Part shown: in pieces, positions 5,901 to 43,834 of the stretch
How the letters are laid out: each line of letters starts with the position of its first letter
How positions within the stretch are numbered: the stretch's first letter is position 1
Assembly (NCBI GenBank): GCA_944321185.1
Contig: CALUKH010000009.1
Span: 1 to 55,292 of the forward strand
Direction: 5' to 3'
DNA from: an uncultured Alistipes sp.
GTDB lineage: Bacteria; Bacteroidota; Bacteroidia; Bacteroidales; Rikenellaceae
DNA length: 55,292 nucleotides
The notes under the pieces: model-generated
The model's input: only the letters and a program-made list of their open reading frames with translations
Database searches by the model: none
Told to the model about the DNA's origin: nothing
Position numbers and translations under genes: made by a program

Positions 5901-7154
5901 TCAATCATCCAGGCGGATGGTCTGGCCCGTGAGCCGGCTGCGCTCGGCTTCGTAGCAGATGCGGTGGCTCTCGACCGACTGCTCGATCGAGGTGCGGAAG
6001 TCATGCTCGCGACAGGCCAGCGTGTGGACGAAATCCTCGATCAGATTGAGGTCGGCGCCGGCGTGGAAGGGTGTCCCGACGATCGACGAGAAGTCGAAGA
6101 TCTTCTCCCGTGCGCCGCGGAACCAACGCAGACGCAGCGTACGTTCGTCGCCGTCGATCTCGCCGTGCGTCAGGCGGATATGGGTCTGGCGCTGGTCGTC
6201 GAGGGTGAAGGGGTCCATCGTGAAGGAGATCGTGACGTCGTCATCCATCTCCATGGCAATGGTCTGATGATCCACCACGTCGTTGTCGCAGCGGAAGACG
6301 CAACGTCCGTAGGGCCCTTCCCTCAATTCACGGTCGATCACCTGGTCGATGGTTGCACCCTGCGGGACGTCGAAATTCGAGATCCAGTCGCGGCGCGTGC
6401 GGTAGAGGTCGACGGCCGAATAGGGGCACGAGGGCTCGATCGGACAGTCGATGCAACGATCGGTGCTGCCGGCCGGGGCATTCTCCGCGCGGAACCAGCG
6501 CAGCGACCCGAACGAGGCGAGTTTGCGGCACCGCGACGAGGTGATCCACAGCAGGAAATCGATGTCGTGGCAGCACTTCGAGATGAGGATCGGGTTGGTG
6601 ATCTCCTCGCGGCGCCACATGCCGCGGACGTATCCGTGGGTCATGCGGTCGATGCCGACGGCGGCGTTGTGGTTGATCGAGATGATCTGACCGAGTTCGC
6701 CCGAATCGACGATCTGCTTGATGCGCATGAAGTAGGGGTGGTAGCGCAGCACGTGGCAGACGCCGACGATGACCCCCTTGCTGCGGGCGGCCCGGGCAAT
6801 GGTCCGGCATTCGTCGAGGGTTCGGGCGATGGGTTTTTCGAGCAGCACGTGGTAGCCGGCCTCGATGGCGCGCATGCAGGGATCGAAGTGGAGGTTTTCG
6901 GGGGTGGCGATCAGCACGGCATCGGCCTGAAGCGGATGGCGGAAGAAGCACGCGTAATCCTCGAAGCATTGTGCGGCTTTCAGCCCGAATTTTTCGGCCA
7001 GGGCGTGACGCCGCAGCGGATTGGGCTCGACGAGCCCCACGAGCCGCAGTCGCTCGGGATGCCGCACGGCGTATTCGAGGTATTTGTTGGTGCGGTTGCC
7101 GCCGCCGATGGCGACGATCGTCACCGGTGCATTCGGGAAGTTGGTTTCATCCAT
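5901..7154 (-). CDS. Gfo/Idh/MocA family oxidoreductase, no export signal
   Basis: NAD(P)-dependent sugar oxidoreductase of the Gfo/Idh/MocA superfamily, 417 residues from the chosen start. A Rossmann motif, VAIGGGNRTNKYLEYA, sits close to the N-terminus. The family signature EKPIARTLDE follows at about residue 105, then the alpha/beta substrate domain (HVLRYHPYF, MTHGYVRGMWRREE). A cysteine cluster (CRKLASFG, then CIDCPIEPSC) near residue 215-250 could bind a metal or be structural. No signal peptide or Tat motif is seen, so it is probably cytoplasmic, unlike the related enzyme at 10049-11332. An in-frame ATG at 7169 is an alternative start. The ATG at 7205 falls inside a hairpin and is unlikely. 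It is the last gene of the PUL. The substrate is unknown; a 3-keto sugar or an unsaturated-uronate product is plausible from context. Confidence 0.88.
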   Translation of the reverse strand: MDETNFPNAPVTIVAIGGGNRTNKYLEYAVRHPERLRLVGLVEPNPLRRHALAEKFGLKAAQCFEDYACFFRHPLQADAVLIATPENLHFDPCMRAIEAGYHVLLEKPIARTLDECRTIARAARSKGVIVGVCHVLRYHPYFMRIKQIVDSGELGQIISINHNAAVGIDRMTHGYVRGMWRREEITNPILISKCCHDIDFLLWITSSRCRKLASFGSLRWFRAENAPAGSTDRCIDCPIEPSCPYSAVDLYRTRRDWISNFDVPQGATIDQVIDRELREGPYGRCVFRCDNDVVDHQTIAMEMDDDVTISFTMDPFTLDDQRQTHIRLTHGEIDGDERTLRLRWFRGAREKIFDFSSIVGTPFHAGADLNLIEDFVHTLACREHDFRTSIEQSVESHRICYEAERSRLTGQTIRLDD

Positions 7155-7190
7155 GGTTTGCTGACACATTTGTAGTACGTATGGGCGTCT

Positions 7191-7223
7191 GGAAAAGGCC
7201 CGCATCCGATTCGGGATGCGGGC
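7191..7223 (-). terminator. Hairpin between HEAT-DUF1080 gene and last oxidoreductase gene
   Basis: A perfect 10-bp stem (7198-7207 with 7214-7223) with a 6-base loop. Read on the - strand it is followed by CCTTTTCC, a short T run. It may end part of the PUL transcript just upstream of the last gene, or act as an attenuator or processing site. Confidence 0.6.
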
Positions 7224-7241
7224 TTTTACCGGCGGGGTCGG

Positions 7242-10019
7242 TCAGAGTTCCTTGATGCGGATGTTCCGGAACTGGATGCCGGGGCCGTGGCCCAGCAGAC
7301 CGATGTGTCCGCGTTTGTTGAAGAGTCCCGGATGGTTGCGGCCGTCGACCGTGTAGGGATTCTTGTTCGAGCCGTCGGGGGCGACGTTGTGGCCCTTGCA
7401 GGCCTGGCGGATATTGCCGTCGAGGATCACCTCGCCGTTGACCGTGACGGTGATGCGGTCACCCACGGCGCGGATCTCTTCGGTATTCCACGTGCCCAGT
7501 TCGCCGAACTGGACGTGTTTCTGGGCGGGGATGATGCCGTAGACCGAACCGTGCTGCTGGTAGATGCGCAGGTTCTTGTAGATCGGGGCGTCGTGGTCGA
7601 GCACCTGGATCTCCATGCCGTGATAGGCGGCGTCGACGCCCATCGGCGTGCGGATGCCGATGCCGTTGTTGACCCCCGCGCGGTCGAAGGCGAATTCGAA
7701 GCGCAGGATGAAGTCGCCGTACTCCTTGATGGTGTAGAGGTTGCCGCTGCCGCCGAACTGGGCCGTGACATAGATCGTGCCCTCCTGGGGGACATAGTTG
7801 GTCTTGTTGCCGGTCCATTTTTCGAGCGAGAGCCCGTCGAAGAGGACCTCGAAACCTTCGGCAGCCTCGTCGGCCGGGAGTTCGAAGCGCGGAATGGCCG
7901 CATAACGGGCCAGCAGTCCCTTGATTTCGTCGACGGCATAACCGGCATCGGGATCGCTCTTGGCACGTGCGGCATAGCTGTCACGTGCCTTTTCGAGTGC
8001 AGCTACTACGGTCTCGCCACCCATGCCGGGATTTTTGGCCGCGATGGTCTTGACGGCTTCGGCGGCCGCCATTTCGGTCTGCGGATCGTCGAGATAGGGG
8101 GAGATGATGGCGACGGCCGGCAGCGATGCGGTCCGGGCCAGGGCACGGAGCATTTTGTTGCAGACGGCGGCCGAAGGCTTCAGTTCGAGCCCCTTGCGGA
8201 AGCCGTCGACCTGTTTGTCTGCGGCAGCTGCGGCGACGAAATCGACGTAGCGCGTCAGGGCGTCATCGGCCCATGCGGGGTTCTGTTGCGCCAGGTTGTA
8301 GAGAACGTTGGCCATTTCGGGATTCTCGATCGTCAGGAGCGCCCGGAATGCGGCCTCACGCTCCGGAGCGGCAAGCAGATCATCGATCGCCGCACGAACG
8401 CCCGACTGGGACAGCAGCGGATAGTAACGTGTCTTTTCGGGGGCCGCGGCCAGACGTTCCGAGACTTTGGCATATTGCGTCTCGGGTTGCTGCGAGGCCA
8501 GGGCATTCTTCAGGGCGGCCTGATACTTGCCGATCTCATCGCCCGAAGCCTTGTCCAGCAGATCGCACAGCGGGCCGAACTCCTGCATCGTGCAGATGCC
8601 CGACAATGCCTCCACGGCAGCATCGTGAACCGCACGGTTATCGGACGCAAGCAGCGTGAAGACCCGTTCCGAGGCGGCCGAGATGCGGCGTGCGGCGATC
8701 AGTTTCAGCGCCTGGATCTGAATCTGCGGCGTGCGGTCGAGGGCAGCAATCAGGCCGTCGTTCACCTTTCCGTTGAAGGCCCGCAGAGCGGAGGCGGCTT
8801 CGGCGGCGTGTTGGCCGTCGAGGGCCGCGATCAACGTCTCGAGCGCCTCATTGCCGCCGATTCGGCCGGCTGCGCGGATGGCAGCTGCGGTCAGTTCGTC
8901 GTTCGTCGAGCGGATCAGCGGCGTGATGACTTCGATCTGCGATGCGGCGTGGCGGCTTCCCAGCCAGTTGACCACATCCGTGCGGGCTTCGTCATCGAGC
9001 GACGAGAGCGTCCCGGCAACGGCTGCCTCCAGCGTCTCGTCCGCAAAGTCGTTGGCGGCATCGAGCGCTGCTCCGCGATATGCGCGATTCGAATCCTTGA
9101 GGGCTGTCAGCAGCAGTCGGGTGCGTTTGCCGGTGTCGTACTTGAGTTGCAGCTCGAGGGCGGCGGCGCGTACGTTCGCACGGGCCGTGGCCTTGCCGAG
9201 CGATCGGGCGGCCGAGAGGGCACTCTTCGTGTCGCCCTGTTCGGCCAGCCGGTTCAGCAGCCGGAGGTAGGAGGCCGTGGCGTCGTACGGAGCAAAGTCA
9301 TAATCCGAAGCGGCGGCCGCATCGGCCAGTGTCCGGAGCGAGGCCTTGCCTCCGCAGCAGCCCAGCGCATGGTAAACGGCTTCGCGTGTCGGGTCGTCGC
9401 CGGCCTTCGCGGCCCATTCGAGCAGCGTCGGCTCGACCTCCGCAAGCCCTTTTGCGGCGGCGGCATCGGCCAGACGGATGACGGGATGGTCGCTGTGGCG
9501 GATCAGATCGGTCAGCACAGCCTCGCTGCCCGGCGTGGCGATCAAACCCCGCACGGCCGCGTCGGCCAGGTACTCGTCCGTGACGTATTTTTCAAAGACA
9601 CGGGCATCTTCGGCCGTCGAGCAGATTTGCAGCAGCGAGAGCAGAAAGGCCTGATTGGGTTTGTCCGTGCAGGCGGCCACGCTCTCGGCCAGTCCGCGCC
9701 GGACTTCTGTACGGGCGGCTTCGCGGCCGCTGGCCGTGACGTAATGCACGACGCCGCTCAGGGCATACTCCACCGGAGCGTTCGGCCCCTTGGCGGCCGG
9801 GACGAGCATGCCGGCCATTTCGCGGATGCCGGCAGCTCCCGTGGCGGCCAGCTCCTTCATCAGTTCGTCGTAAAGTTCGGGTGTCTGGGCCGGAAGCTGG
9901 GCCAGGGCGTCGGCAATGATTGTCGACGTGGTGCGCTGTCGTTCGTCGCGGAGCTCCTGGGCCCCCGAAACCAACGGCAGCAGCAGTCCGGCAAGCAGTA
10001 TGAGGATCAGTTTCTTCAT
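7242..10019 (-). CDS. HEAT-repeat protein fused to a C-terminal DUF1080 domain, secreted
   Basis: A 925-residue exported protein. It has a signal peptide (MKKLILILLAGLLLPLVSGAQ), then about 650 residues of short Ala/Leu-rich helical repeats resembling HEAT/PBS-lyase-like repeats (for example ELTAAAIRAAGRIGGNEALETLIAALDG). From about residue 715 a DUF1080 domain (3-keto-disaccharide hydrolase family, concanavalin-like fold) starts at GFEVLFDGLSLEKWTG and ends with IGLLGHGPGIQFRNIRIKEL. No lipobox is seen, so it is probably periplasmic. Other DUF1080 proteins are known to hydrolyse or eliminate 3-keto-glycosides; that this copy is catalytic is inference. The helical solenoid may bind a partner protein or a long glycan. 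It is encoded 29 bases after the Tat-exported oxidoreductase, which may make its substrate. Confidence 0.85.
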   Translation of the reverse strand: MKKLILILLAGLLLPLVSGAQELRDERQRTTSTIIADALAQLPAQTPELYDELMKELAATGAAGIREMAGMLVPAAKGPNAPVEYALSGVVHYVTASGREAARTEVRRGLAESVAACTDKPNQAFLLSLLQICSTAEDARVFEKYVTDEYLADAAVRGLIATPGSEAVLTDLIRHSDHPVIRLADAAAAKGLAEVEPTLLEWAAKAGDDPTREAVYHALGCCGGKASLRTLADAAAASDYDFAPYDATASYLRLLNRLAEQGDTKSALSAARSLGKATARANVRAAALELQLKYDTGKRTRLLLTALKDSNRAYRGAALDAANDFADETLEAAVAGTLSSLDDEARTDVVNWLGSRHAASQIEVITPLIRSTNDELTAAAIRAAGRIGGNEALETLIAALDGQHAAEAASALRAFNGKVNDGLIAALDRTPQIQIQALKLIAARRISAASERVFTLLASDNRAVHDAAVEALSGICTMQEFGPLCDLLDKASGDEIGKYQAALKNALASQQPETQYAKVSERLAAAPEKTRYYPLLSQSGVRAAIDDLLAAPEREAAFRALLTIENPEMANVLYNLAQQNPAWADDALTRYVDFVAAAAADKQVDGFRKGLELKPSAAVCNKMLRALARTASLPAVAIISPYLDDPQTEMAAAEAVKTIAAKNPGMGGETVVAALEKARDSYAARAKSDPDAGYAVDEIKGLLARYAAIPRFELPADEAAEGFEVLFDGLSLEKWTGNKTNYVPQEGTIYVTAQFGGSGNLYTIKEYGDFILRFEFAFDRAGVNNGIGIRTPMGVDAAYHGMEIQVLDHDAPIYKNLRIYQQHGSVYGIIPAQKHVQFGELGTWNTEEIRAVGDRITVTVNGEVILDGNIRQACKGHNVAPDGSNKNPYTVDGRNHPGLFNKRGHIGLLGHGPGIQFRNIRIKEL

Positions 10020-10048
10020 TGTATGCAGTTTTTTGGGATGGTTGGCGG

Positions 10049-11332
10049 TCAGATTTTCCAGGGTGAGCGCATCGGTTGATCGATCAGGCGGTTGGCAGCC
10101 TCATCGCCGACGAAGAGCTGTTTCTGCGGGTCGAAGTGCAGCGTGCGGTTCAGGCGCAGGGCGCAGAGGGCCATGTTGACCAGCGTGGCGCTGTGATAGC
10201 CCTTGATCTCGTCCAGGGCGAAGCGTTCACGGGTGTGGACGCAGCGGATGAAGTCGGTGTTCTGCGGTTCGGGATCGGGCAGCTCGGCGATGCGGTTCAT
10301 CACGTCGGGGATCGTGCACTCGAATCCCTTGTAGACCTTGCCCTTCGGTCCCTCGATGTAGGGCACCTTGCCCTTGCTTTCGTAGCCCTCGCCTTCGAGG
10401 ATGATCTGACAGCCGTCGTCGTAGGTGTAGACGATGCGGCGCCAGATGCCGATGGCGTCGGGATGCTGCTGCGGAGCGTCCACCTCGACCTTCACCGGCG
10501 AGGTCTGGTCCTTGCCCAGCAGATACTGCACGGGGTCCATGTAGTGCTGGCCCATGTCGCCCAGACCGCCGCCGTCGTAGTCCCAGTATCCGCGGAAGGT
10601 CTGGTGCGTGCGGTGTGCGTTGTAGGGCTTGTAGGGGGCCGGACCCAACCACAGGTCATAGTCCAGCTCCGCGGGAACGGGCTGCGGGGTGAGGTTCTCC
10701 TTGCCCACCCAGAAGAATTTCCACGTGAAGCCCGTGGCGCCCGAGATGGTTACCTTCAGCGGCCATCCGAGCAGCCCGCTGTCGACGAGTTTCTTGAGCG
10801 GTTCGACGGTCGTCCCCAGCCCGTAGAAGGTGTCCTGGAAGCGGAACCACGTATTCAGCCGGAAGATCCGGCCGTTCTGCTTGACGGCCTCCATGACGCG
10901 TTTGCCCTCGCCGATGGTGCGAGTCATCGGCTTCTCGCACCAGATGTCCTTGCCGGCGCGCGCCGCCTCGACGGCCATGATGCCGTGCCAGTGGGGCGGG
11001 GTGGCGATGTGGACGATATCGACGTTCGGGTCGTTGATCAGGTCGCGGTAGAAGTGGTAGGCCTTCAGGGTCTTGCCGAACTTCTTGCGGCCCAGTTCCA
11101 CGGCGCTGTCCAGGTGGTTCCGGTCGACGTCGCAGACGGCAACCAGCCGACAGCGTTCGTCGCTGGTGAAGTGGTAGCTCGAGCGTCCGATGCCTCCGAC
11201 GCCGATGATGCCTTTGGTGAGCTGATCGCTCGGGGCGACGTGCTTCGGCCCGCCCAGCACCCACCGCGGTACGATGGTCAGGAGCGTTGCGGCACCCGCC
11301 GTTTTCAAGAAATCTCTACGATTGAGTCCCAT
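10049..11332 (-). CDS. Tat-exported Gfo/Idh/MocA family oxidoreductase
   Basis: Gfo/Idh/MocA oxidoreductase of 427 residues with an N-terminal twin-arginine signal: RRDFLK at residues 5-10, then a mild hydrophobic stretch (TAGAATLLTIVPRWVLGG). The Rossmann motif GVGGIGRSSYHF is near residue 45, and the signature CEKPMTRTIGEGKRV near residue 130. The substrate domain includes YWDYDGGGLGDMGQHYMD, typical of the periplasmic members in this phylum. Tat export implies that it folds around its nicotinamide cofactor in the cytoplasm and works in the periplasm. It lies between two DUF1080 genes, 34 bases after one and 29 before the other. A C3 oxidation of a glucoside feeding the DUF1080 enzymes is a reasonable inference; the actual substrate is unknown. 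Confidence 0.92.
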   Translation of the reverse strand: MGLNRRDFLKTAGAATLLTIVPRWVLGGPKHVAPSDQLTKGIIGVGGIGRSSYHFTSDERCRLVAVCDVDRNHLDSAVELGRKKFGKTLKAYHFYRDLINDPNVDIVHIATPPHWHGIMAVEAARAGKDIWCEKPMTRTIGEGKRVMEAVKQNGRIFRLNTWFRFQDTFYGLGTTVEPLKKLVDSGLLGWPLKVTISGATGFTWKFFWVGKENLTPQPVPAELDYDLWLGPAPYKPYNAHRTHQTFRGYWDYDGGGLGDMGQHYMDPVQYLLGKDQTSPVKVEVDAPQQHPDAIGIWRRIVYTYDDGCQIILEGEGYESKGKVPYIEGPKGKVYKGFECTIPDVMNRIAELPDPEPQNTDFIRCVHTRERFALDEIKGYHSATLVNMALCALRLNRTLHFDPQKQLFVGDEAANRLIDQPMRSPWKI

Positions 11333-11366
11333 GGTATGATGAAGTTTTTCGGTTGTGAATCGGGGT

Positions 11367-12671
11367 TCAGAGCGTTGTCAGTCGCAGGCTGCGCCATTGT
11401 ACCTTGATGCCGCCGCCGTCGTGGATCTGGAGGGCGATGCGACCCTGTGCGGCGCCGATTTTGGCGTCGTGCAGGTCGACGATCTTTTCGCCGTTGAGCC
11501 ACGTCTGGACGTGGTCGCCCTCGACGCGCAGCCGAATCATGTTCCACGACCCCTCGTTGAGCATCACCTCCTTGTCGGCAGGCGTCTGGGCGAGCCATCC
11601 ACGTCCGTAAGATTCATAAATGCCGCCCGTGCCGTGGTTGCGCGGCGCCACCTCGCACTGCCAGCCGTGGATCCGTGCGTCGGGTTCGACGAACGAGCGG
11701 AAGAAGATCCCCGAATTGCCGTTCGACAGTTGGCGGAATTCGGCCATCAGTTCGAAATCGTCGTAGTATTCGCGTGTGGCCAGATAGCCGTACTGCTTGT
11801 CGGGGCCGCTCTCGCAGACGAGGTTGCCGTCGGCATCGACATACCATTTCTCCGTGCCGTAGATCTCCCAGCCGGTGAGGTCCTCGCCGTTGAAGAGGTC
11901 GATCTCGCGTCCGGCCTTGCGCGGCAGCTCCTTGATCTTCAGGTTGCGGAACGAGGCCGGATACCCATGGTCCTGCAGGCAGATCACTCCGCGGTGGGCC
12001 AGTCCGTATTCGGGGGCGTTCTCCCACTTGCCGCTGTGTTTGCGCGAGAACCAGTCGTCGGTCCAGGCCTCGAATTCGAGGATCTTGCGGCCGTTGAGCC
12101 AGTGTTCGACATGGCCGTTGTCGAAGACGATGCGCGAAGAGTTCCATTCGCCCTGCGGATGGACCACCATGGCGGCCTTGTCGGGCAGGTGCATGGCGTA
12201 GTCGACGCCCAGCCGCTGCCACTCTTCGAGTTTCGTGGGGGCGTTGTCCTCTTCCCAACCCGCCTCGTCGATGAGCTGATACTCCGGGCCGGTGACGTAG
12301 GGCACCGCAAAGTAGGGATCCTCGACCACGTGGTAGAGCATGCCGCTGTTACCGCCGTGGGAGAGTTTCCAGTCCCAGTCGAGGATGAAGTTTTCGTACT
12401 GTCGGCGCGTGACGATGTAACCCGTCAGGTCGCTGCCGTCGCCGGCCGCCTGGATGCAGCCGTCGACCACGTGCCACGGCATGGTCAGCGAATCGCCGTT
12501 GTAATCCTTCCACTGATCGAGCGTCCGGCCGTCGAAGAGCAGCTGCCAGCCGTCGGCAATCTCCTTTTTGGTCAGCGTGTTGGGCTGCGGCGTGCATGCT
12601 GCGGCTCCCAGCGCAAGCACGACCGCTCCGCACAGGGGAACAAGCGATTGTTGGTTCTTGAAGAGGTTCAT
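11367..12671 (-). CDS. Lipoprotein with two DUF1080 domains (putative 3-keto-glycoside hydrolase/lyase)
   Basis: A 434-residue lipoprotein whose signal ends in GAAAC. It contains two tandem DUF1080 domains. The first runs from about residue 35 (ADGWQLLFDGRTLDQWKDYN) to 240 (HGYPASFRNLKIKELP). The second runs from about 247 (IDLFNGEDLTGWEIYG) to the end (IQIHDGGGIKVQWRSLRL). Both show the family start (LFDG or LFNG, then W) and the inner NSGMLYHV or NSGIFFRS strand. The family includes 3-keto-disaccharide hydrolases and related lyases. The start MNLFKNQQS was chosen because it opens a good lipoprotein signal. It lies 20 bases after the HTCS stop, so it is probably co-transcribed with the regulator. 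The duplication could give two specificities or one catalytic and one binding copy. Confidence 0.87.
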   Translation of the reverse strand: MNLFKNQQSLVPLCGAVVLALGAAACTPQPNTLTKKEIADGWQLLFDGRTLDQWKDYNGDSLTMPWHVVDGCIQAAGDGSDLTGYIVTRRQYENFILDWDWKLSHGGNSGMLYHVVEDPYFAVPYVTGPEYQLIDEAGWEEDNAPTKLEEWQRLGVDYAMHLPDKAAMVVHPQGEWNSSRIVFDNGHVEHWLNGRKILEFEAWTDDWFSRKHSGKWENAPEYGLAHRGVICLQDHGYPASFRNLKIKELPRKAGREIDLFNGEDLTGWEIYGTEKWYVDADGNLVCESGPDKQYGYLATREYYDDFELMAEFRQLSNGNSGIFFRSFVEPDARIHGWQCEVAPRNHGTGGIYESYGRGWLAQTPADKEVMLNEGSWNMIRLRVEGDHVQTWLNGEKIVDLHDAKIGAAQGRIALQIHDGGGIKVQWRSLRLTTL

Positions 12672-12691
12672 GGTATTGGGTTTTAAGTAGT

Positions 12692-15600
12692 TCAGTCGTT
12701 TCGGGACGTTTTGTCGTCTGCGTTTGCATCGTTCTGGCACTGCTTCATGTAGTCCTTCGGGCGCATGCCGAACTGCTTGGAGAAGCACTTGGCAAACCAC
12801 GACATGCTGCTGAAGCCCGTCATGAAGCAGATCTCGTTGATGCGCAGCTCGCCCTTGCGGAGCAGTTGGGCCGCTGTCTTGAGGCGCACGAGCTGGATGT
12901 ATTCGTTGGGCGAGGTGCCGGTCAGCCCCTTCAGCTTGCGTTGCAGGCTCGAACGGCTCAGCGCCATCCGCTCGACGAGCAGATCCACCGACAGCGCCTC
13001 GTTGGTGAGGTTTTCGGAGATGATGCCCGTCAGTTTGTCGAGCCAGGCGCGGTCGCTGCTGCCGATCGTGTCCTTTTCGTACTGCAGGTTCGGCTCCGAG
13101 GCGAAGTGGCGGAAGGCACGTTCGCGATTCTCGAGCAGACTCTCGACCGTCGCCTTGATGTAGCTCAGCGAGAAGGGTTTCTCGATGTAGGCATCGGCTC
13201 CGGACTCCAACCCCTTGATCTTCGAATCGACCGAATCGATCGCCGAAAGCAGGATAAAGGGGATGTGGCAGAGCAGTTCATCGTTGCGGACCCGTACGAG
13301 GAGTTCGTAACCGTCCATCTCGGGCATGAGGATGTCGCTGATAATCAAGTCGCACGAACGTTTCTTGAGGATGTCGAGCGCTTCGCGGCCGTTCCGGGCC
13401 GGGAGCACGTCGTACGTATCCTCGAAATTCTTGTAGAGGAACTCCAGCATGTCGGGCGTATCCTCGACGATCATGATGCAGTGCTGCTTCGTGGCGGCGG
13501 TCTCCTCGTCCTGTGCGGCGGACTCCTCCCCGGCGGCCGCATCCGTCGTGGACGCCTGTGCGGCGGGTTCGCGGATGTCCGGAATCTCGATCGAGAGTTC
13601 GCATCCGCCCGTCGGGTCGGCGTCGTTGATGGTGACTTTTCCGTTGTGCTTCTCGACGAGCAGCTTGACCAGGCTGAGGCCGATGCCGACCCCCTGACCC
13701 GAATAGGGGTTCTCCTGGTAGAAGGCCTCGAAGACCTTCTTGCGGCTGCTGGCCGGGATGCCCGGACCGTCGTCGCGGACCGACAGCCGGAACCTCCGGT
13801 CGCCCTTGCGCGCATCGCTCAGATCGCTCAGCGTGACGCGGATCGTGTGCCGGGCATATTTCAGGGCATTGGCCAGCAGGTTGCTCAGGATCTTGGTCAG
13901 CGCCTCCTTGTCGACGTGGAAGATCATCGGGGTCTCGGGCAGTTCGGTCTCGATCGTGATTTCGCCGGCCGACGTGCGGAACCGGGCGACGGTCTCCCGG
14001 ATGAGCAGGGCGATGTCCGTGTCGCTGCACCGCAGGCGGAACCCTTCGTCGCCGATCTTGCGGAAGTCGAGCAGTTGGCGGATGAGCTCCAGCAGCCGGT
14101 CGACGTTGCGTTTCATGATGTTGAGGTTGGCCGCCACGTCCGTGTTCCAGCGTCCGGTCTCGATGACGTGCTCGAGCGGCGACTTGATGAGCGAAACCGG
14201 CGTCTTGATCTCGTGGACGATCTGCGTGAAGAAGTTGATCTTGGTCTCGATGAGTTTCTGTTCCTTCTTTTCGTTCTGCCGCCTGAGGATCAGCTTGACG
14301 GCCAGCCCCGTAAGCAGGAGCACGATCAACAGATAGCCGATCTTGGCCAGCGGGCTCAGGAACGGATGGGGCAGTACGCGGATCTCCAGATCGCGCGAAG
14401 CGGGGCTCCAGTAGCTGTCGTTGTTGCAGCCCATGACCGAGAAGGTGTAGTGGCCGGCGGGCAGCTTCATGAACGAGACCGAATGCTGGTCGGTGTAGAC
14501 CCAGTCGTCGTTCAGTCCGTTGAGTTTCCAGGCGTAGCGGTTGCGGCCCGGAGCCACGTAGCTCAGACACTCGAAGTTGATGTCGAACGAGACGGTCTGG
14601 CTGGGGATCTCCAGACTGCGGTCCGGGATGATGCGCCGCTCGGAGCAGGTCGAGACCTGGTTGGTGCCGTGCATGCACACCGACGAGATGGCGATGTTGG
14701 GCTTGACCTTGTTGACCGAGATGCTGAAGGGCGAAAAACGGTTGAATCCGTTGATGCCTCCGAAATAGAAGGTCCCGTCGCTGGCCTTGTACGACGAGCG
14801 GAAGTTGAACTGGTTGCTTTGCAGACCGTCTTCGGTCGTGTATCGGATGTGGGTGTGCAGTTCGGGGTTGTAGCGGATGATTCCCTGGTTGGACGAGAGC
14901 CAGAGATTGCCCGCACCGTCGTCGATGATGCCGTAATAGACGCTGCTGGGGAGCCCCTCGCCGGGTCCGAAATTCTCGAATCCGTCGATGGTCGGGTCGT
15001 AGCGGCAGATGCCGCCGCTCTCGCCGCAGAACCATACGCGCCGGTCCGTGTCGATGTAGACGCGGATGAACTTGTCGCCCGCCGGCGATGCGGGGTCGAG
15101 CGGATCGTGGCGGTAGTTGGTCCACGTCTTGTCGCGTTTCGAGTAGCGGTAGATGCCGTGTACGCGCGAGGCGACCCAGAGGTTGTCGTGATCATCCTCG
15201 GCGATGTCGTAGATGAAGTAGCTGGCCAGCTCCCGCACGCGGGTGAAGTGCCCCGTGCGGGTGTCCAGGATGCACAGCCCGCTCATCGTCCCGACGTAGA
15301 GTTGGTGGTCGCCGACCTTGTAGATGACGTAGACGTAGTCGTTGCTCAGCGAGGTGGAGTTTTCGGGGATGTTGCGGTAGTTGGTGACCTTTCCCGTGCG
15401 GAGATTCATGCAGTCGAGCCCCCGCGAGAAGGTTCCGATCCAGAGATTCTCGCCGTCCAGACAGAGGGCATGGAGGTTGTTGTGGCTTTTGGCGGTGTAG
15501 TCGGTGAAGGTGGCGGTGTGCGAATCGAAGTAGTTCAGACCGCCGTTTTCGGTGGCGATCCAGAGGTTGCCCTTCTCGTCCTCGCAGAATTGGCTGACGG

Positions 15601-16648: not shown

Positions 16649-16675
16649 GGTAAGAATCGGGATCTTGTGGGATAA

Positions 16676-16713
16676 GTCCGCTCCCGGATCCGGTATAGGA
16701 TCGGGGAGCGGAC
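16676..16713 (-). promoter_or_regulatory. Stem-loop in the leader of the HTCS gene
   Basis: A 10-bp stem (16676-16685 with 16704-16713) is extended by an inner GATCC/GGATC pair. It lies between the stop of the upstream lipoprotein gene (16725) and the HTCS start (16648). No good T run follows on the - strand, so it may be an attenuator, an RNA-stability element or a weak terminator. Confidence 0.55.
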
Positions 16714-16724
16714 GGTTTTTCCGG

Positions 16725-18404: not shown

Positions 18405-18426
18405 GATACGGGTCGGTTGTCGGGTA

Positions 18427-22442: not shown

Positions 22443-22511
22443 AAGGTTTTCGTTTTCAGTAATAATGTCTTTTCGTCGGTTGGATGTCTTGATGGCATCT
22501 CTCCGGTGATG

Positions 22512-22546
22512 ACGGGGCTGTCTGACCTTTGGTCGGACAGCCCCGT
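22512..22546 (-). promoter_or_regulatory. Long intercistronic stem-loop
   Basis: A 16-bp stem (22512-22527 with 22531-22546, one G-T wobble) with a 3-base loop lies between the fimbrillin-like surface protein gene and the first heparinase-like gene. No T run follows on the - strand, so it is more likely an RNA-stability or processing element, or a partial terminator, than a full stop. It would help give the upstream SusCD segment a higher transcript level than the enzyme segment. Confidence 0.65.
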
Positions 22547-22573
22547 GGCATCAGCCGTGTGAGAGAGAAGTCG

Positions 22574-24601: not shown

Positions 24602-24622
24602 GACTTCGATTCATTTAGGGGA

Positions 24623-25102
24623 TTATTGCTGCGGATTGTCTTCGAGGTTGCCGGCGGAGTTCTCGTCGCTGATACCCTCCGGTACACCGTCGGCCGTGAA
24701 GGTGACATAGCTCGAGGCGCAGGCGCGGCCCGTGCCGTCGTAGACGATCACGGCGCACAGGTAGTCCTGTTCGAAGACCAGATTGCTCAGTTCGGTGGTG
24801 TAGGGCAGGCCGTCGATTGCGGTGCCGTTCTCCTCGACGTACTTGATGAGCTGAATCTCACGCGTGTAGTCGAAATCCAGCGTGGAGATGCGGATGCCCG
24901 TAACGACCTTTGCGCCGTAGAAGTCGCCGCTGGTCAGCGAGGCGGTGATGGTTGCCTTGTTGTCTGCAATGTTGCTGGCTTCGATCTTGACGGTCGGGGC
25001 ATTTCCTGCGCTGCCGCCGTCCGAATCCGACGAGGAGTCGCCGCAGGATCCGCCGAGGAATCCCAGAACGAGTGCAACGGAAATCAATAGGTACTTTTTC
25101 AT
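24623..25102 (-). CDS. Small PUL lipoprotein, function unknown
   Basis: A 159-residue lipoprotein (lipobox LGGSC, followed by a Ser/Asp-rich linker, GDSSSDSDGGSAG). The remaining ~120 residues form one beta-rich domain (PTVKIEASNIADNKATITASL, then ASSYVTFTADG), which looks like a fibronectin type III or similar Ig-like domain. A low-complexity acidic tail ends the protein. It lies between susD and the fimbrillin-like gene, 39 and 21 bases away, so it is part of the surface complex operon. It could be a second small glycan-binding protein or a spacer/assembly partner. No named family is assigned. Confidence 0.75.
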   Translation of the reverse strand: MKKYLLISVALVLGFLGGSCGDSSSDSDGGSAGNAPTVKIEASNIADNKATITASLTSGDFYGAKVVTGIRISTLDFDYTREIQLIKYVEENGTAIDGLPYTTELSNLVFEQDYLCAVIVYDGTGRACASSYVTFTADGVPEGISDENSAGNLEDNPQQ

Positions 25103-25141
25103 AAGGTTAGGTATTTTCAGGTATTGAATCGGTTTGTCGCA

Positions 25142-26962
25142 TCAATAGATCCATCCCGGGCGGACCGTCAGAGCCGGATTGCGCTGGTATTCACCCTGCG
25201 GAACACTCCACGGCCAGAGGCAGTCGTTCCAGTACCAGGGGTACTCGACCGTGTCGTCGCCCCACCACGACTGACCGCCGTGGACGTCCTTGCCCTGGAA
25301 CTTGGTCTGCTTGTAGGTTCCCCAACGCACTTCGTCGAAGTAGTTCAAAGCCTCGACCGGGAACTCCACGCGGCGTTCGTAACGGACGGCTTCGCGCATC
25401 TCCTCGAGCGAGCCGATCTGGATGCCCGGCATGTGGGCACGCGTGCGCACCTGGTCGATCAGATTCTTGGCCGTCGAGAAGTCGTTCAGCTCGATCAGCG
25501 CTTCGGCCCACTGCAGCAGCACGTCCGTGTAGCGGATCAGCGGGAAGTCGGTGTGGCAGCGCTGACGGTCGATCAGATCGCCCTTCAGGAAGTAGACATA
25601 CTTGCGGTAGCAGTAGTAGGCCGACGTACGCTTGTCGAGCCAGAAGTCGCCGCCGCTGGTTCCCTGCTGGTAGAGCGGCCAGCGGAGAGCCTTTCCGATC
25701 ATGTTTTCGTCGTTGTTGTAGTTGGGCGTATAGCAGTCGACGGGCTCGTAGGGGGTCAGGATCGTCTGCTTCAGACGCGGGTCGCGGTTCTCATAGGCGG
25801 CCTTGATACGGGCTTCGTTTCCGTTGTCGAGGTAGTACTTGTCGAAGGTATCCTGACCGCAGACGCCGATGGCCTGGGTCTTCTGCGATGCGAGATCGGA
25901 GTTGCTCTTCAGGCCGTCGCGGCAGAAGAAGACGGCACGCTGTTTGGGGGTGAGCTGATCCCAGTCCTCAAGGCCCGGAACCTGGCTCCATTCGAACTTC
26001 GAACCGTCGGCATTCTGGTAGTAGTCGACGAAATCGGCTGCGGGTTTCACCTCGTCCCAGCCGCCGTAGGTGTCGCGAGCGCCGACCGCCTGCTGGATGT
26101 TGTCGCAGTAGCCCGACTCCTCGTCGTACTGGATGGCGAAGATCATCTCGTTGTCCTTTTCGTTGGCGGCGGTGAAGAAGTCGGCGTATTCGCCCTGCCA
26201 GAGGTCGTATCCGCACTTGCTGACCTGGCTGAAGTCATTGGCGGCATTCTGCCACTCCTTGAGCCACATGTAGGCCATGCCACGCAGGGCATAGGCGGCG
26301 CCTTTCGACGGACGGCCGTAATTCTCGGTCAGGGTGTTGTCGGGGAAGTTGGCGCTGTTGATGCAGTCGTTCAGGTCGGGCAGCACCACTTCGCGCCACA
26401 CGTAGTCGGCCGACTCCTGCGTACGCGTGCACTCCTCGTTGGAGATGGGCTCCAGGTAGACCGGCACGCCCTGCCAGAACTTGTTCAGACGCGAGTAGGC
26501 CCATGCACGGATGAACTTGGCCTCGCACAGATAGCGGTCGTAGGTCACCTCGTCCAGACCGGCCTTCTGCAGGTTGGCGATGGCGTCGTTGGCGGCGTGT
26601 ACGATCGTGTAGCAGAACTTCCATTCGTGGTTGATCTGCCAGTCGTTGGCCGTCTTGGCCTGGTTGTAGAGCAGGTAGATCGGGTAGTTGTTGGCGTAGT
26701 AGTCGGTGCAGAAACCGAGGGCTTCGATACCGTACTTGTTCAGTCCGTCGAGGTTCTCCGAACGAACCTGGGTACCGTTGCTCTGCTTGCGGTTGTAGAA
26801 GGTCTCGTAGAGTCCGTTCATGCCCTTCAGGGCAAGTTCGGGCGTCGTCCACATGTTCTCGCTGGCAATCTGGTTCTCGGGCGAGGTATTGAGCATATCC
26901 ACGCAGGAGGTGGCCGTCAGAGCGGCAACTGCGACGAGGAGGGTGTTATATATCTTTTTCAT
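25142..26962 (-). CDS. SusD/RagB family nutrient-binding outer-membrane lipoprotein
   Basis: A SusD-like lid lipoprotein of 606 residues that binds glycan and closes over its SusC partner. The signal ends in TATSC. The mature N-terminus (DMLNTSPENQIASENMWTTPELALKGMNGLYE) is the classical SusD start. Helical TPR-like segments follow, and the C-terminal SusD domain has LIRYTDVLLQWAEALIELND and RRVEFPVEALNYFDEVRWG near residue 490-540. It starts 6 bases after the SusC stop, the usual tight pair. Glycan specificity cannot be read from sequence. Confidence 0.96.
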   Translation of the reverse strand: MKKIYNTLLVAVAALTATSCVDMLNTSPENQIASENMWTTPELALKGMNGLYETFYNRKQSNGTQVRSENLDGLNKYGIEALGFCTDYYANNYPIYLLYNQAKTANDWQINHEWKFCYTIVHAANDAIANLQKAGLDEVTYDRYLCEAKFIRAWAYSRLNKFWQGVPVYLEPISNEECTRTQESADYVWREVVLPDLNDCINSANFPDNTLTENYGRPSKGAAYALRGMAYMWLKEWQNAANDFSQVSKCGYDLWQGEYADFFTAANEKDNEMIFAIQYDEESGYCDNIQQAVGARDTYGGWDEVKPAADFVDYYQNADGSKFEWSQVPGLEDWDQLTPKQRAVFFCRDGLKSNSDLASQKTQAIGVCGQDTFDKYYLDNGNEARIKAAYENRDPRLKQTILTPYEPVDCYTPNYNNDENMIGKALRWPLYQQGTSGGDFWLDKRTSAYYCYRKYVYFLKGDLIDRQRCHTDFPLIRYTDVLLQWAEALIELNDFSTAKNLIDQVRTRAHMPGIQIGSLEEMREAVRYERRVEFPVEALNYFDEVRWGTYKQTKFQGKDVHGGQSWWGDDTVEYPWYWNDCLWPWSVPQGEYQRNPALTVRPGWIY

Positions 26963-26968
26963 GGTGTT

Positions 26969-29900
26969 TTAGAATGTGATTTGGGCTCCGAAAGTTACTG
27001 AACGCATAAGGGGATAACCGATCGTGGATCCCTTCTCCGGATCGAGACCGGGATAATCGGTGATGGTCAGCAGGTTCTCTCCCGAAACGAAGAAGCGAAG
27101 CTGCTGGACGAAGAACTTCTTGGTGATGTGCGACGGCAGCGTGTAGCCGATCTGGATGTTCTTCAGCTTGAGGTAGTCGCCCTTGTACTCGTAGAATTCG
27201 CTGTCGATGCGGTTGCTCATCGGCGTACCGTAGGTCAGACGCGGATAGGTGGCCGTGAGGTTGGTCCGCGGGTCGCTCGGGTTCGAGGGATCGAAGAAGT
27301 AGTGGTCGTTGGCCACGCGCTCGCTGATACCGTGGCCGTTGGTGGTCTGGGTACCGTTGTAGTAGAGGGCGTTGTAGATGATCCAGAAGTCGAAGGCGCC
27401 CGACCACGTCATGTTCAGATCGAGGCCTTTCCAGGCGAATCCGAGATTCAGACCGAGGTTGTACGACGGAGTGCTCGTACGGCCGTTGAAGTCGCGGTCG
27501 TCCTCGTCGCCGTAGTTGCCGTCGCCGTCACGGTCGGCGTAGATCATGTCGCCGTACCAGAGCTGGTCCTTGCTCATGGCCGAAACGCCGTTGAACGTAT
27601 AGCCCGATTCCATCATGGCCTCGACCCACTGGAAGTCCTTCTCGGTGCGGATCATACCGTCCGTCGGACCGGCATTGATGTCGACGGCACCACCCGAATA
27701 GCCGGCACCCGTACCGTTGTAGATGCGGCGCAGATAGTGCTCGCCCAGAGCGTGGCCTTCGCAGAGCTTGCCGCTGCCGTAGCCGGCCGTCACGTCGGAG
27801 AGGTTGTTGGTGTACTCACCATCGACCCACTGCTTGACCAGATCACCCTTGAACTTGGTGACGCGGTTCTTGTTGTAGGAGAAGTTCACGCCGGCGTAGT
27901 AGGTGAAGTCCTTGCCGATGTGGCTCTTCCAGTTCAGGGCCAGTTCGACGCCTTTGTTGACGACGCTGCCCAGGTTCGAGGGTACGCCCGAAACTTCACC
28001 CATCGTCATGTAGATGGTCGGCGTATAGAGGATGTCGGTGGTATTCTTGCGATAGTAGTCGATTTCGGCCGTGAGTCGGTTTTCGAAGAAGCCGAGGTCG
28101 AGACCGATGTCGGTCGTTGCGGTGGTCTCCCACTTGAGGTTGGAGTTGCTCAGCGAGGAGATGTAGAGGCCCTTCGTTGCGCCGCCGTCGACTACGACGT
28201 TCTGCGTGGCGTAAACGGCCTGCCAGGCGTAGTTGCCGATGCCCTGGTTGTTACCGGCTTCGCCCCACGATGCACGCAGCTTGAGGTTCGAGAGCCAGCC
28301 CTCGGTGCCGTCCATGAAGCTCTCCTCGTGGATCTTCCAACCGGCCGAGAACGACGGGAAGATACCGTAGCGGTTGTTGATACCGAAGCGCGACGAACCG
28401 TCGGCACGCAGATTGGCTTCGAACAGGTAGCGGTTCTTGTAGGCGTAGTTGATACGTCCGAAGTAGGAGCGCAGACCCCAGCCGTTCTTGGCCGTGCTGG
28501 ACGATCCGGAGAGGGTTTCGAACGTACCCAGGTCGTTCAGAATCCAGTCCGTGGCACCCTTCTTGCTGACGCCCCAGCCCCACGTGCGATACTCCATGGC
28601 GGAGTAACCGGCCAGGATGCCGAAGTCATGCTCGCCGATGGTCTTGGTGTAGCGGGCCAGGATTTCCGACGAGATGTAGTAGTTTCTCGAGGTGGTGTTC
28701 GATACCGACGAGTTGGCCAGGTCGGAACTCGAGTAACGCGTATTGGTCGTGTAGTCCCAATAGCCGTTTTCGCGGCCGTAGGAGTGTCTTTCGCCGAAGG
28801 TGGGCGAGTAGTTCATCGTGGCCTCGATCGAGAGATCCTTGTAGGGGCGGAACTTGGCGTAGATCGATCCGTTGACACGCGTCGAGACGTTGTAACCGCC
28901 CGAGCCGTACATCATGCCGAAGATGTTGTTGGCATTCGACGACTCCTCGGCGTTCAGGGCGGGACGGCCCCAGGCGTTGACATCACCCGGATAGACGCCC
29001 GGCGTGGTCTGATAGAGGGCGTTGAAGGCGTTGGAGATGGCGGCCAGACCGTAGTTCTGACGCTGACCGAAGATGCGCACGCCGGCGGTGAACCACTTCG
29101 TCACGTCGGCTTCGAGGTTCGTACGGAAGTTGAGCTTCTGGGTCGACGAGTCGATGCCGAAGCGTCCCATGACGCCCTGGTTGTCGAGATAACCCATCGA
29201 GATGAGGTAGCGGACCGTCTGCGAACCGCCCGAGATCGAGAGGTTGTGCTCCTGCGAGTAGCCGGTCTGGAAGATTTCGTCGAACCAGTCGGTGTTGGGG
29301 TAGGCGGCGTAGTTGGGCACGCCATACTCGGTCAGACCGTAGGGATCGAGGGCCTTTTCACGCCAGAGGTCGATGTTCGACTGCGAGAAGATGCGCGAGG
29401 TGCCGATGTTGTCGCACGACTCGTTGATGAGCTCCATGTGGCGGGCGTAGTCCGAGACGAAGTGGAGCTTGTTGTAGGGCATCTGCAGAATACCCTTGTA
29501 CGAATAGCTGATCTGGGGTTTGCCCACCATACCGTTCTTGGTGGTGATCAGGATAACGCCGTTGGCGGCACGCGTACCGTAGATCGAGGCCGAGGCGGCA
29601 TCCTTCAGAACGGAGATCGAGGCGATGTCGTTCGGGTTGACGTTGTCCATGCTCCATTCGATACCGTCGACGAGCACCAGCGGGCCGTTTGCACCCGAGG
29701 TGAACGAGCCGTCGCCGCGGATGCGGATCGTGGCGCCGTCCGAACCGGGCTGGCCCGAACTCTGGGTCACGTTCATACCGGGAGCCAGACCGGCCAGTGC
29801 GGCCGACGTGCTGACGATCGAGCGGCTGTCGGAGGTCTTGGCAAAGTCGATCGACGATACCGAACCGGTCAGGTTGACCTTCTTCTGCACGCCGTAACCG

Positions 29901-30235
29901 ACCACCACGACATCTTCGAGCATCATGTTGTCGGTTTCGAGCGTAATGTCGATCACGCTGCGGCCGTTGATGGCCTCCGAGGCGGGTTTGTAACCCATGC
30001 AGGAGATCTGCAGGGTAGCCTTCGGATTCTTGACCTCGAGGGTGTAGACACCTTCGGTGTTGGTTGTCGTGGCTTCTCTGGGCGAAACCATCACGACTGC
30101 GCCGACAACGGCCGATCCGTCGTTGCCGATGACCTTTCCGGTGATTGTGTGGGTGTCATTTTGCTGCGCAACGGCCGGCAAGGCCATGGCGAACAAAAAT
30201 ACCGAACACAGCAGTTTGGTCAGTTTTTGTCTCAT
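26969..30235 (-). CDS. SusC/RagA family TonB-linked outer-membrane transporter
   Basis: TonB-dependent outer-membrane barrel of 1088 residues that imports oligosaccharides captured by the paired SusD. After a signal peptide (ends PAVAQ) comes a carboxypeptidase-regulatory-like domain (TITGKVIGNDGSAVVGAVVMV; about 28-105), then a TonB-box-like segment (EDVVVVGYGVQKK). The plug domain follows (TIRIRGDGSFTSGANGPLVLVDG; ISVLKDAASASIYGTRAANGVILITTK), then the beta-barrel, ending in the aromatic signature MRSVTFGAQITF. No N-terminal STN domain is present, so signalling through an anti-sigma factor is unlikely; the HTCS is the expected regulator. It lies 50 bases downstream of the GH88 gene. Confidence 0.97.
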   Translation of the reverse strand: MRQKLTKLLCSVFLFAMALPAVAQQNDTHTITGKVIGNDGSAVVGAVVMVSPREATTTNTEGVYTLEVKNPKATLQISCMGYKPASEAINGRSVIDITLETDNMMLEDVVVVGYGVQKKVNLTGSVSSIDFAKTSDSRSIVSTSAALAGLAPGMNVTQSSGQPGSDGATIRIRGDGSFTSGANGPLVLVDGIEWSMDNVNPNDIASISVLKDAASASIYGTRAANGVILITTKNGMVGKPQISYSYKGILQMPYNKLHFVSDYARHMELINESCDNIGTSRIFSQSNIDLWREKALDPYGLTEYGVPNYAAYPNTDWFDEIFQTGYSQEHNLSISGGSQTVRYLISMGYLDNQGVMGRFGIDSSTQKLNFRTNLEADVTKWFTAGVRIFGQRQNYGLAAISNAFNALYQTTPGVYPGDVNAWGRPALNAEESSNANNIFGMMYGSGGYNVSTRVNGSIYAKFRPYKDLSIEATMNYSPTFGERHSYGRENGYWDYTTNTRYSSSDLANSSVSNTTSRNYYISSEILARYTKTIGEHDFGILAGYSAMEYRTWGWGVSKKGATDWILNDLGTFETLSGSSSTAKNGWGLRSYFGRINYAYKNRYLFEANLRADGSSRFGINNRYGIFPSFSAGWKIHEESFMDGTEGWLSNLKLRASWGEAGNNQGIGNYAWQAVYATQNVVVDGGATKGLYISSLSNSNLKWETTATTDIGLDLGFFENRLTAEIDYYRKNTTDILYTPTIYMTMGEVSGVPSNLGSVVNKGVELALNWKSHIGKDFTYYAGVNFSYNKNRVTKFKGDLVKQWVDGEYTNNLSDVTAGYGSGKLCEGHALGEHYLRRIYNGTGAGYSGGAVDINAGPTDGMIRTEKDFQWVEAMMESGYTFNGVSAMSKDQLWYGDMIYADRDGDGNYGDEDDRDFNGRTSTPSYNLGLNLGFAWKGLDLNMTWSGAFDFWIIYNALYYNGTQTTNGHGISERVANDHYFFDPSNPSDPRTNLTATYPRLTYGTPMSNRIDSEFYEYKGDYLKLKNIQIGYTLPSHITKKFFVQQLRFFVSGENLLTITDYPGLDPEKGSTIGYPLMRSVTFGAQITF

Positions 30236-30285
30236 AGGTGAATAGTTTTAGTGGTTTGGTTGAATTTGGAAGTTCTCGTTTTCGT

Positions 30286-31485
30286 CTATTTAGGCTGGGT
30301 GTCGCATGTTTTTTTGTATTTTAGCAGGGCTTCGAGGAAATAGTAGTCGGCATAGGTCAGCGGGACATCGATCTCCGAGTTGTCGGGGCGCGAGCCGACG
30401 CTGTGTTTCAGAATGAAGTTTCCGTTCTCGCCGACGGCGGCCAGATATTCGTCCGAGGCGAGCGTGCGGAGTTGTTTTTCGGCCATGGCGAGGTATTTGT
30501 CGCGGTTTTCGGACTTGTTGGTCAGCGAGCTCAGGTCGACGAACGCCGAGGCCATGATGGCGGCGGCCGAAGCATCCTTCAGGTCGTTGGGGATCTGATC
30601 GGAGTCGAAGTCCCAGTAGGGGATCCCGTCGTCGGGCAGCCGGCCCAGCAGCATTTCGGCGATGTTTTCGGCCTGGTTGAGGTAGCACTCCAGACCGCTG
30701 TAGCGGAACATCATCGTGTAGCCGTAGAGGGCCCAGGCCTGACCGCGGGCCCAGGCCGAATCGTCGCTGAAGCCCTGCACGGTCTCACGGCTGCGCACGT
30801 GACCGTCCTCGGGATCGTAGTCGACCAGGTGATAGGTCGTGAAGTCGGGGCGGAAGTGGTTGCACATGGTCGTATTGGCGTGGTTGATGGCCACCTCCTT
30901 CAGGGAGTCGTTTCCGAAGAGCTCGCCGGCATAGTTGAGCAGTTCGAGATTCATCATGTTGTCGATGATGACCGGATACTTCCAGTCGCGGCCCTTGCGG
31001 ACGAAGTCCCAGCTGCGGATGACGCCCGTGACGGGCGAGTAACGCTTGGCCAGGATGCGGGCCGAACGCTCCAGTGGTTCGAGATACTTGGCGTCGCCGG
31101 TCAGACGGTAGGCGTTGCCGAAGCTGCAGTTCATCTGGAATCCCAGATCGTGGTCCGTACCTTTATATTGTAGGGGAGCGAGTTTGAGGGTATTTTTCTC
31201 GGCGAGTTGCTTGACGGTTTCGTCGCCCGTATATTCATAGATGTACCACAGCGAGCCGGGGTAGAAGCCGCTGCCCCACCAGCGGATGTTCGAGTTGGCG
31301 ATCTTGCCGTCGGCGTAGTAGGTCTTGGGGAGCGAATCGGGAGCCAGCCGTTCGTCCATCGACTTGTATTGAGCCGAGGCCACGTTGAAAACCCGGTCGG
31401 TCAGTTCAGGCATGGTTTCCTGATGGGAGCATCCTGCCGCCAGAACGATCGACAGAAATACCGCATAGTAGGATCTCTTTTTCAT
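30286..31485 (-). CDS. GH88 unsaturated glucuronyl hydrolase, lipoprotein
   Basis: Family GH88 enzyme that removes the 4,5-unsaturated uronic acid left at the non-reducing end by polysaccharide lyases. It does this by hydrating the double bond. The 399 residues include a lipoprotein signal (lipobox LAAGC). HDLGF contains Asp113 and IDNMMNLELL contains Asp175. These two aspartates match, in motif and in their 62-residue spacing, the catalytic pair of the Bacillus enzyme (Asp88 and Asp149, as I recall them). DDSAWARGQAWALYGYT near residue 241 is also typical. It is the first gene of the PUL and explains the need for the heparinase-like lyases further down. The sugar next to the uronic acid cannot be predicted. 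Confidence 0.94.
   Translation of the reverse strand: MKKRSYYAVFLSIVLAAGCSHQETMPELTDRVFNVASAQYKSMDERLAPDSLPKTYYADGKIANSNIRWWGSGFYPGSLWYIYEYTGDETVKQLAEKNTLKLAPLQYKGTDHDLGFQMNCSFGNAYRLTGDAKYLEPLERSARILAKRYSPVTGVIRSWDFVRKGRDWKYPVIIDNMMNLELLNYAGELFGNDSLKEVAINHANTTMCNHFRPDFTTYHLVDYDPEDGHVRSRETVQGFSDDSAWARGQAWALYGYTMMFRYSGLECYLNQAENIAEMLLGRLPDDGIPYWDFDSDQIPNDLKDASAAAIMASAFVDLSSLTNKSENRDKYLAMAEKQLRTLASDEYLAAVGENGNFILKHSVGSRPDNSEIDVPLTYADYYFLEALLKYKKTCDTQPK

Positions 31486-40201: not shown

Positions 40202-43834
<3,633 letters not shown>

Follow-up and report, generated by a model that had tools for sequence, protein, structure and literature searches.

Among described loci, the closest that we found to the polysaccharide utilization locus (PUL) studied here is PUL25 of Bacteroides caccae (PMC12269599). 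The locus occupies positions 5901-31485 of a 55,292-nucleotide stretch of DNA from an uncultured Alistipes sp. (GenBank assembly GCA_944321185.1, contig CALUKH010000009.1). We refer to the whole stretch as the window; it is contig 9 of genome G000 (1.97 Mb, 79% complete). PUL25 combines a PL35 lyase, a GH88 hydrolase, a GH109 enzyme and a GH154-type glucuronate dehydratase that readies saturated glucuronate ends for GH88. The two loci share a PL35 lyase, a GH88 enzyme and a glucuronate glycosaminoglycan as the target, which for the window is a prediction. PUL25 lacks a chondroitin sulfatase, and a Pfam scan of the window's open reading frames (ORFs; 34 plus 3 further) found no sulfatase, in agreement with an earlier reading of this DNA made from its letters alone (the sequence-only reading). 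The window differs from PUL25 in several respects. PDB sequence searches, which included no GH154 or GH109 profile, returned no relative of either family from it, the Pfam scan found no M60-type peptidase among the ORFs, and the window has a PL33 lyase and a quartet of DUF1080 and Gfo/Idh genes. The quartet comprises a tandem DUF1080 protein, a Gfo/Idh/MocA oxidoreductase with a twin-arginine translocation (Tat) signal, a HEAT-repeat protein with DUF1080 (HEAT-DUF1080) and a second Gfo/Idh/MocA oxidoreductase. We call the Tat oxidoreductase and HEAT-DUF1080 the pair.

Two further systems resemble parts of the locus. BT4410 of Bacteroides thetaiotaomicron (PUL80; PMC11848413, PMC12877422) is of the same PL33_1 type as the window enzyme, with the same catalytic Asn, Tyr and His and a near-identical tunnel loop. 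The neighbor of BT4410 is BT4411 (DUF4627), whereas the window PL33 gene lies between genes for the PL35 lyase and a 559-aa protein. The quartet recalls the BT2156-BT2160 type of 3-keto-glycoside pathway, which is said, in a 2024 Nature paper, to consist of a 3-dehydrogenase, a DUF1080 lyase/hydrolase, a hydratase and a reductase. The likeness rests on the combination of Gfo/Idh oxidoreductases with DUF1080 proteins and on their PDB neighbors 8tdf and 8tda. In contrast to that pathway, the window oxidoreductases score far below the BT_2158 and BT_2159 cut-offs, one DUF1080 domain is fused to HEAT repeats, no AP_endonuc_2 gene was found in the cluster, and the quartet is joined to a glycosaminoglycan PUL. 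The PUL itself is of a known kind; what is unusual is its extension, which is specific to one lineage. The sequence-only reading had not recognized the combined route as described, and none of the titles and abstract openings among the literature matches listed describes it, a search outside which most subscription papers fall.

We hold, at slightly better than even confidence, that the window contains a glycosaminoglycan PUL to which a 3-keto-glycoside module was appended at the 3' end in one Alistipes lineage, and that this module may cut saturated glucuronides. The cluster consists of 13 minus-strand genes transcribed from 31485 to 5901 with intergenic gaps of -4 to 131 bp, and its SusC/SusD pair, CAZymes and regulator qualify it as a PUL. 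ORF and Pfam analysis bore out the gene content, order, strand and coordinates that the sequence-only reading had given. The families it named are all there, though it overlooked the 559-aa gene, the doubling of DUF1080 in one protein and the HEAT repeats in another.

The two lyases, both heparinase II/III-like, belong to described families. The PL33-type protein (18427-20505, subfamily 1-like) matches the solved PL33 structures 8r6z, 8r75, 8r70 and 8r73 (E 9e-193 to 3e-189) over residues ~30-688 of 692. Counting on the alignment, its N247, Y300 and H476 fall on the catalytic N238, Y291 and H444 of BtPL33-HA, and its W251 corresponds to the PL33_1 residue Trp242; these reference residues are described in PMC11848413. 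The tunnel loop (around Y470/F475 of BtPL33-HA) is nearly identical to that of the hyaluronan enzyme. The PL35-type protein (20502-22442) matches GAGase II, GAGase VII and the B. caccae PL35 enzyme (PDB 8khv, E 4.1e-117; 8khw, 1e-115; 9o3q, 8.2e-61). Its N219, Y274 and H430, again counted on the alignment, pair with N192, Y246 and H401 of GAGase II, an Asn/Tyr/His triad described in PMC12088678. A Thr precedes the catalytic Asn, as it does in the aligned B. caccae enzyme. The N-terminus reads CSDDD, which under the lipoprotein export-signal rule makes this lyase probably a surface lipoprotein. The third enzyme is the GH88 unsaturated glucuronyl hydrolase (30286-31485; PF07470 E 2.4e-11, 43.7 bits against a cut-off of 26.6). 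It aligns with unsaturated glucuronyl hydrolases, the best being the heparin-specific 3wiw (E 1.3e-102; 1vd5, E 5.7e-50), and its N-terminus reads as a lipoprotein signal.

These families narrow the choice of polymer. The substrates of PL33 enzymes are hyaluronan, chondroitin sulfate, heparosan or gellan, and those active on glycosaminoglycans stop at disaccharides (PMC11848413); for PL35 enzymes they are hyaluronan, chondroitin sulfate and heparan sulfate, with alginate as a further substrate of one (PMC12088678). The B. caccae PL35 enzyme releases mainly unsaturated disaccharide from unsulfated chondroitin, which the GH88 of the same locus splits (PMC12269599). Given the PL33 and PL35 families, the intact catalytic residues and the presence of GH88, the first half of the locus is most probably a PUL for an unsulfated, glucuronate-containing glycosaminoglycan. 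The view of the sequence-only reading that the substrate is unrecognizable is not supported. Sequence does not discriminate between hyaluronan, chondroitin and heparosan. That reading had also proposed a route in which, after beta-elimination, the glycoside that GH88 leaves must be oxidized at C3 in order to be cleaved. Since glycosaminoglycan-active PL33 enzymes stop at disaccharides and GH88 splits the disaccharide, no glycoside of the repeat is left that would need oxidative cleavage.

The quartet begins directly behind the hybrid two-component system regulator (HTCS; 12692-16648), which carries Reg_prop, Y_Y_Y, HisKA, HATPase_c, Response_reg and HTH_18 domains. The HTCS stop and the start of the tandem DUF1080 gene are 20 bp apart, and spacing throughout the quartet is 20-36 bp. 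The tandem DUF1080 lipoprotein (11367-12671) belongs to the 3-keto-disaccharide hydrolase family, with two PF06439 domains (E 5.7e-84, 281.3 bits; cut-off 26.8) and matches to 3u1x (E 1.4e-63), 8tda (1e-27) and 8rr2 (3.4e-28). HEAT-DUF1080 (7242-10019) consists mostly of HEAT repeats (PF13646) with a C-terminal DUF1080 (PF06439 E 8.9e-36, 124.1 bits) and has no NCBIfam match. The Tat oxidoreductase (P0003; 10049-11332) carries PF19051 (E 3.1e-141), PF01408 and TAT_signal. Its best PDB matches are 8tdf and 8tdh, and none of its 12 PDB matches at E 1e-10 is named as a GH109 or N-acetylgalactosaminidase chain (no GH109 profile was run). It is a candidate glycoside 3-dehydrogenase, scoring 143.7 bits against the cut-off of 750 for NF058561 (BT_2158 glycoside 3-dehydrogenase) and 27.2 bits against the cut-off of 650 for NF058563 (BT_2159 disaccharide 3-dehydrogenase). 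The last gene (5901-7205; PF01408 E 4.4e-25, PF22725) scores 38.4 and 41.3 bits with the same two models and reaches no NCBIfam cut-off; its product is a candidate cytoplasmic keto-sugar reductase.

The N-termini read as a Tat motif in the first oxidoreductase, a lipoprotein Cys in the tandem DUF1080 protein and a Sec signal in HEAT-DUF1080, with none evident in the second oxidoreductase. These signals suggest an order of periplasmic oxidation, periplasmic elimination and hydration, and cytoplasmic reduction. Of 32 HEAT-DUF1080 copies, 2 stop short of the terminal HG motif; the 30 that are complete at the C-terminus all have its His, which we relate to the catalytic His reportedly mutated in the B. 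theta lyase. Elsewhere in the same genome, contig 16 carries a third DUF1080 gene adjoining an AP_endonuc_2-type gene (L111, 1253-3182), a pair that resembles BT2156/BT2157. The chemistry of the 3-keto-glycoside pathway is taken here from PMC13273386 and PMC9007349. An alternative, in which the DUF1080 proteins would be GH16-like endo-glycanases of the ordinary sort and the oxidoreductases would act on unrelated sugars, draws on a planctomycete DUF1080 protein reported as an endo-xanthanase/glucanase in PMC10881899 and PMC9007349. The match to 8tda and 8rr2 fits 3-keto chemistry better, as does the occurrence of a Gfo/Idh beside DUF1080 in 19 of 20 loci outside the genus, and we consider this alternative highly improbable.

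In the pathway that we propose from families and active-site residues, PL35 at the cell surface would cut a glucuronate polymer with little or no sulfate (hyaluronan, chondroitin or heparosan), SusC and SusD would import the resulting oligosaccharides, and PL33 would degrade these in the periplasm to unsaturated disaccharides, which GH88 would split into 5-keto-4-deoxyuronate and hexosamine. The Tat-exported Gfo/Idh, with bound NAD(P), would oxidize a glycoside at C3 in the periplasm, the DUF1080 proteins would remove the aglycone by elimination and form a 3-keto-sugar by hydrating the product, and the cytoplasmic Gfo/Idh would reduce this sugar. The likeliest targets of the quartet would be glycosides beyond the reach of the lyases and GH88, such as saturated terminal glucuronides, so that it would play an accessory part. 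We propose saturated glucuronides because of the PUL context and the uxuA neighborhood of the pair in relatives. This role would be comparable to the job shared by the GH154-type dehydratase and GH88 in PUL25.

Related genomes show the locus with and without its second half. We searched 34 PL33 loci from one scan by tblastn with the window proteins; several of these loci end at contig edges. Six contain the PUL core (L005, L006, L007, L009, L010 and L027, the last of which is partial at a contig end). In that scan, the named relatives nearest to the window are L005, an uncultured Alistipes with a PL33 88% identical, and L006, Candidatus Alistipes intestinipullorum, at 75%. This genome-context comparison, which the sequence-only reading had named as a check, recovered the joined set in one close relative, L005, and found the other five without the quartet behind the HTCS. 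The L005 species (L005/L101/L102, genome G061) has the same gene order at 86-97% identity, and L101, the rest of the L005 record, carries all four quartet genes at 88-97% identity, followed by the V-ATPase. Because the order recurs in a second species, the cluster is more than chance. In the window, too, a plus-strand V-type ATPase operon lies beyond the last cluster gene. Candidatus Alistipes intestinipullorum has an empty site: in L006 and its longer stretch L112, the V-ATPase K subunit gene comes immediately after the HTCS, and RNase R stands ahead of GH88 on the other flank. The quartet was either gained in the window/L005 lineage or lost in L006, and its lack beside the HTCS in the other PUL relatives favors gain. 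By this comparison, the second half is a lineage-specific add-on to the PUL.

The same genomes speak to the proposed obligatory oxidation. Physical linkage and operon-like spacing support it, and the joining of a lyase/GH88 PUL to a DUF1080/oxidoreductase module is physically real. Against an obligatory step, nothing of the repeat remains after PL33 and GH88, and relatives carry the same PUL with no adjoining quartet. The search for P0003 at E 1e-60 was negative in three of the five PUL genomes other than G061 (G062, G065 and G066, which hold L006, L009 and L010; completeness not stated), and overall in 7 of 10 genomes. In the L007 and L027 genomes, the pair is on another contig, adjoining lipoprotein genes. 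PMC11501099 reports that deleting BT2157 or BT2158 left growth on raffinose-family sugars unimpaired, so such clusters can be dispensable. The module as an obligatory second step is not supported, and we regard that route as very unlikely.

We compared the distributions of the two halves across 393 Bacteroidales genomes, with tables counted from listings and statistics uncorrected for genome size and kinship. The Tat oxidoreductase occurs in 39 genomes (27 of 207 genera) and PL33 in 33, with 16 shared (Fisher p 1.4e-9). GH76, used as a control, occurs in 31 genomes, of which 17 also have the oxidoreductase (p 2.4e-11). Co-occurrence was dropped as evidence of shared function because this unrelated family is equally enriched; the overlap of 6 in the 362 GH76-negative genomes (p 7e-4) we treat as weak. 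Fifteen other Bacteroidales genomes have both the PL33 and the oxidoreductase gene, and the two were never seen as neighbors there: they are on different contigs of drafts in 14 and more than 1.2 Mb apart in one.

These results bear on a rival explanation, in which a 3-keto-glycoside unit of general use came to lie beside the PUL as the quartet and serves other glycosides, with no substrate shared between the halves. The matching GH76 control, the failure to see the two genes as neighbors in any of the 15 genomes and the empty site with its V-ATPase flank in L006/L112 favor it, as do the failure to find UxuA in G061 and the free-standing occurrence of the pair amid differing neighbors. What speaks for shared use is that the HTCS is followed, with gaps of 20-36 bp, by units that lie scattered in relatives, and that both the window and the G061 species keep them there. 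We give the general unit a substantial but lesser chance, and a shared substrate of the two halves seems plausible.

The quartet genes mostly occur apart. Among 61 near relatives, the window genome included, HEAT-DUF1080 is present in 11 genomes, the tandem DUF1080 (orthologue cut E < 1e-150) in 10 and both in 9, an association with a Fisher p of 3e-8, uncorrected for kinship. The two DUF1080 genes share a contig in none of the eight genomes with both, the window genome excluded, and the tandem DUF1080 gene stands apart from other module genes in all nine loci fetched. By our reading, a metal-type ABC transporter adjoins it in five of these nine. A 56% relative of the 5901-7205 oxidoreductase likewise stands apart from module genes in G014. 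Of the 41 other oxidoreductase places in the order, we fetched 20, all outside the genus: HEAT-DUF1080 adjoins the Tat oxidoreductase in 19, the remaining neighbors vary widely, and the second Gfo/Idh adjoins in one (G423). In G318 the pair lies beside another DUF1080/Gfo-Idh cluster, and in the Cryptobacteroides-type loci L103 and L104 it comes after a series of large lipoproteins that bear a weak similarity to the 675-aa lipoprotein of the window. The Tat Gfo/Idh (PF19051) and HEAT-DUF1080 thus form a conserved, widespread two-gene unit (L145-L164, L054-L063 and window 7242-11332), the function of which seems undescribed.

Within the genus, the pair stands beside uxuA in all six carriers among the 36 genomes searched (G001, G010, G014, G015, G016 and G033). 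There is a more specific form of the appended-module explanation, which we regard as unlikely: the quartet could be an oxidation-dependent glucuronidase that takes off glucuronate at saturated ends, and perhaps acts on further glucuronides, through C3 oxidation, elimination, hydration and reduction. It would then have been recruited from a free-standing pair of the kind found beside uxuA, as a non-homologous replacement for beta-glucuronidase or for GH154/GH88 in glycosaminoglycan breakdown.

Several observations weigh against our main explanation, in addition to the GH76 control and the planctomycete enzyme described above. The uxuA gene of the window genome is on contig 3 and not in the window, and a search of G061, which is the one further species with the joined locus, found no UxuA family member (completeness not stated). 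Outside the genus, uxuA is next to the Tat oxidoreductase in 0 of the 20 loci. In the HEAT-DUF1080 tree, the window and L005-species copies group with the Cryptobacteroides-type and G423 copies (99/98) and not with the uxuA-linked ones, although the tool warned that the composition of the window sequence departs from that of the alignment. The oxidoreductase tree leaves the same choice of grouping undecided. Finally, no AP_endonuc_2-type gene was found in the window, and we take this type to be the best-characterized hydratase of the 3-keto-glycoside pathway. The HEAT-DUF1080 grouping suggests that the module came from outside the genus, perhaps from the very group of bacteria in which the PUL is shared.

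The remaining genes of the cluster lie in the PUL half. The 559-aa lipoprotein (16725-18404), between PL33 and the HTCS and 76 bp from the latter, has a predicted beta domain and (alpha/alpha)6 barrel. It has strongly conserved motifs and is present in five of the six PUL relatives (L005, L007, L009, L010 and L027), missing in L006. It could be placed in no family: it has no DUF4627 match, no significant PDB sequence match with either a single query or a 6-sequence profile, and no match in a plasmid search; among the 50 fold matches listed, none is named GH154, which leaves GH154 possible. The transporter pair comprises a SusC-like TonB-dependent transporter (26969-30235; Pfam Plug, TonB_dep_Rec_b-barrel and CarbopepD_reg_2) and a SusD-like lipoprotein (25142-26962; PF07980 E 1.6e-41). 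Two further lipoproteins, of 159 aa (24623-25102) and 675 aa (22574-24601), lack Pfam and NCBIfam matches and are kept at this place in L005, L006, L007, L009 and L010. From its position, the larger one is probably a surface glycan-binding protein.

The flanks and signals of the cluster were also inspected. Plus-strand GH76 (32345-33529) and GH97 (33654-35594) genes lie upstream of GH88, between it and RNase R. They are not at that place in L102 (RNase R end 10742, GH88 start 10977) or in L112 (RNase R 605, GH88 931), so the GH88-side end of the PUL site also differs by gain or loss. Promoter consensus scans gave 1 site against a shuffled mean of 2.4 and 4 against 3.8, and terminator-like sites numbered 10 and 20 against shuffled means of 11.3 and 15.2. 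As these counts are close to those of shuffled sequence, they say nothing on co-transcription. An ARAGORN call at 40441-40522 was taken as spurious, since it falls within metH on the opposite strand.

If the quartet does act as a glucuronidase, it would be a further bacterial route for clearing saturated glucuronate ends, one invisible to CAZyme-based annotation, and would be relevant to glycosaminoglycan and drug-glucuronide metabolism in the gut. As a general question, the two-gene unit of Tat oxidoreductase and HEAT-DUF1080 may be more worthwhile than its fusion to the PUL. Even if the glucuronidase proposal does not hold, the locus is a clean example of a PUL capturing a sugar-chemistry module, with the empty site, the joined locus and the free-standing module all present in sequenced relatives.

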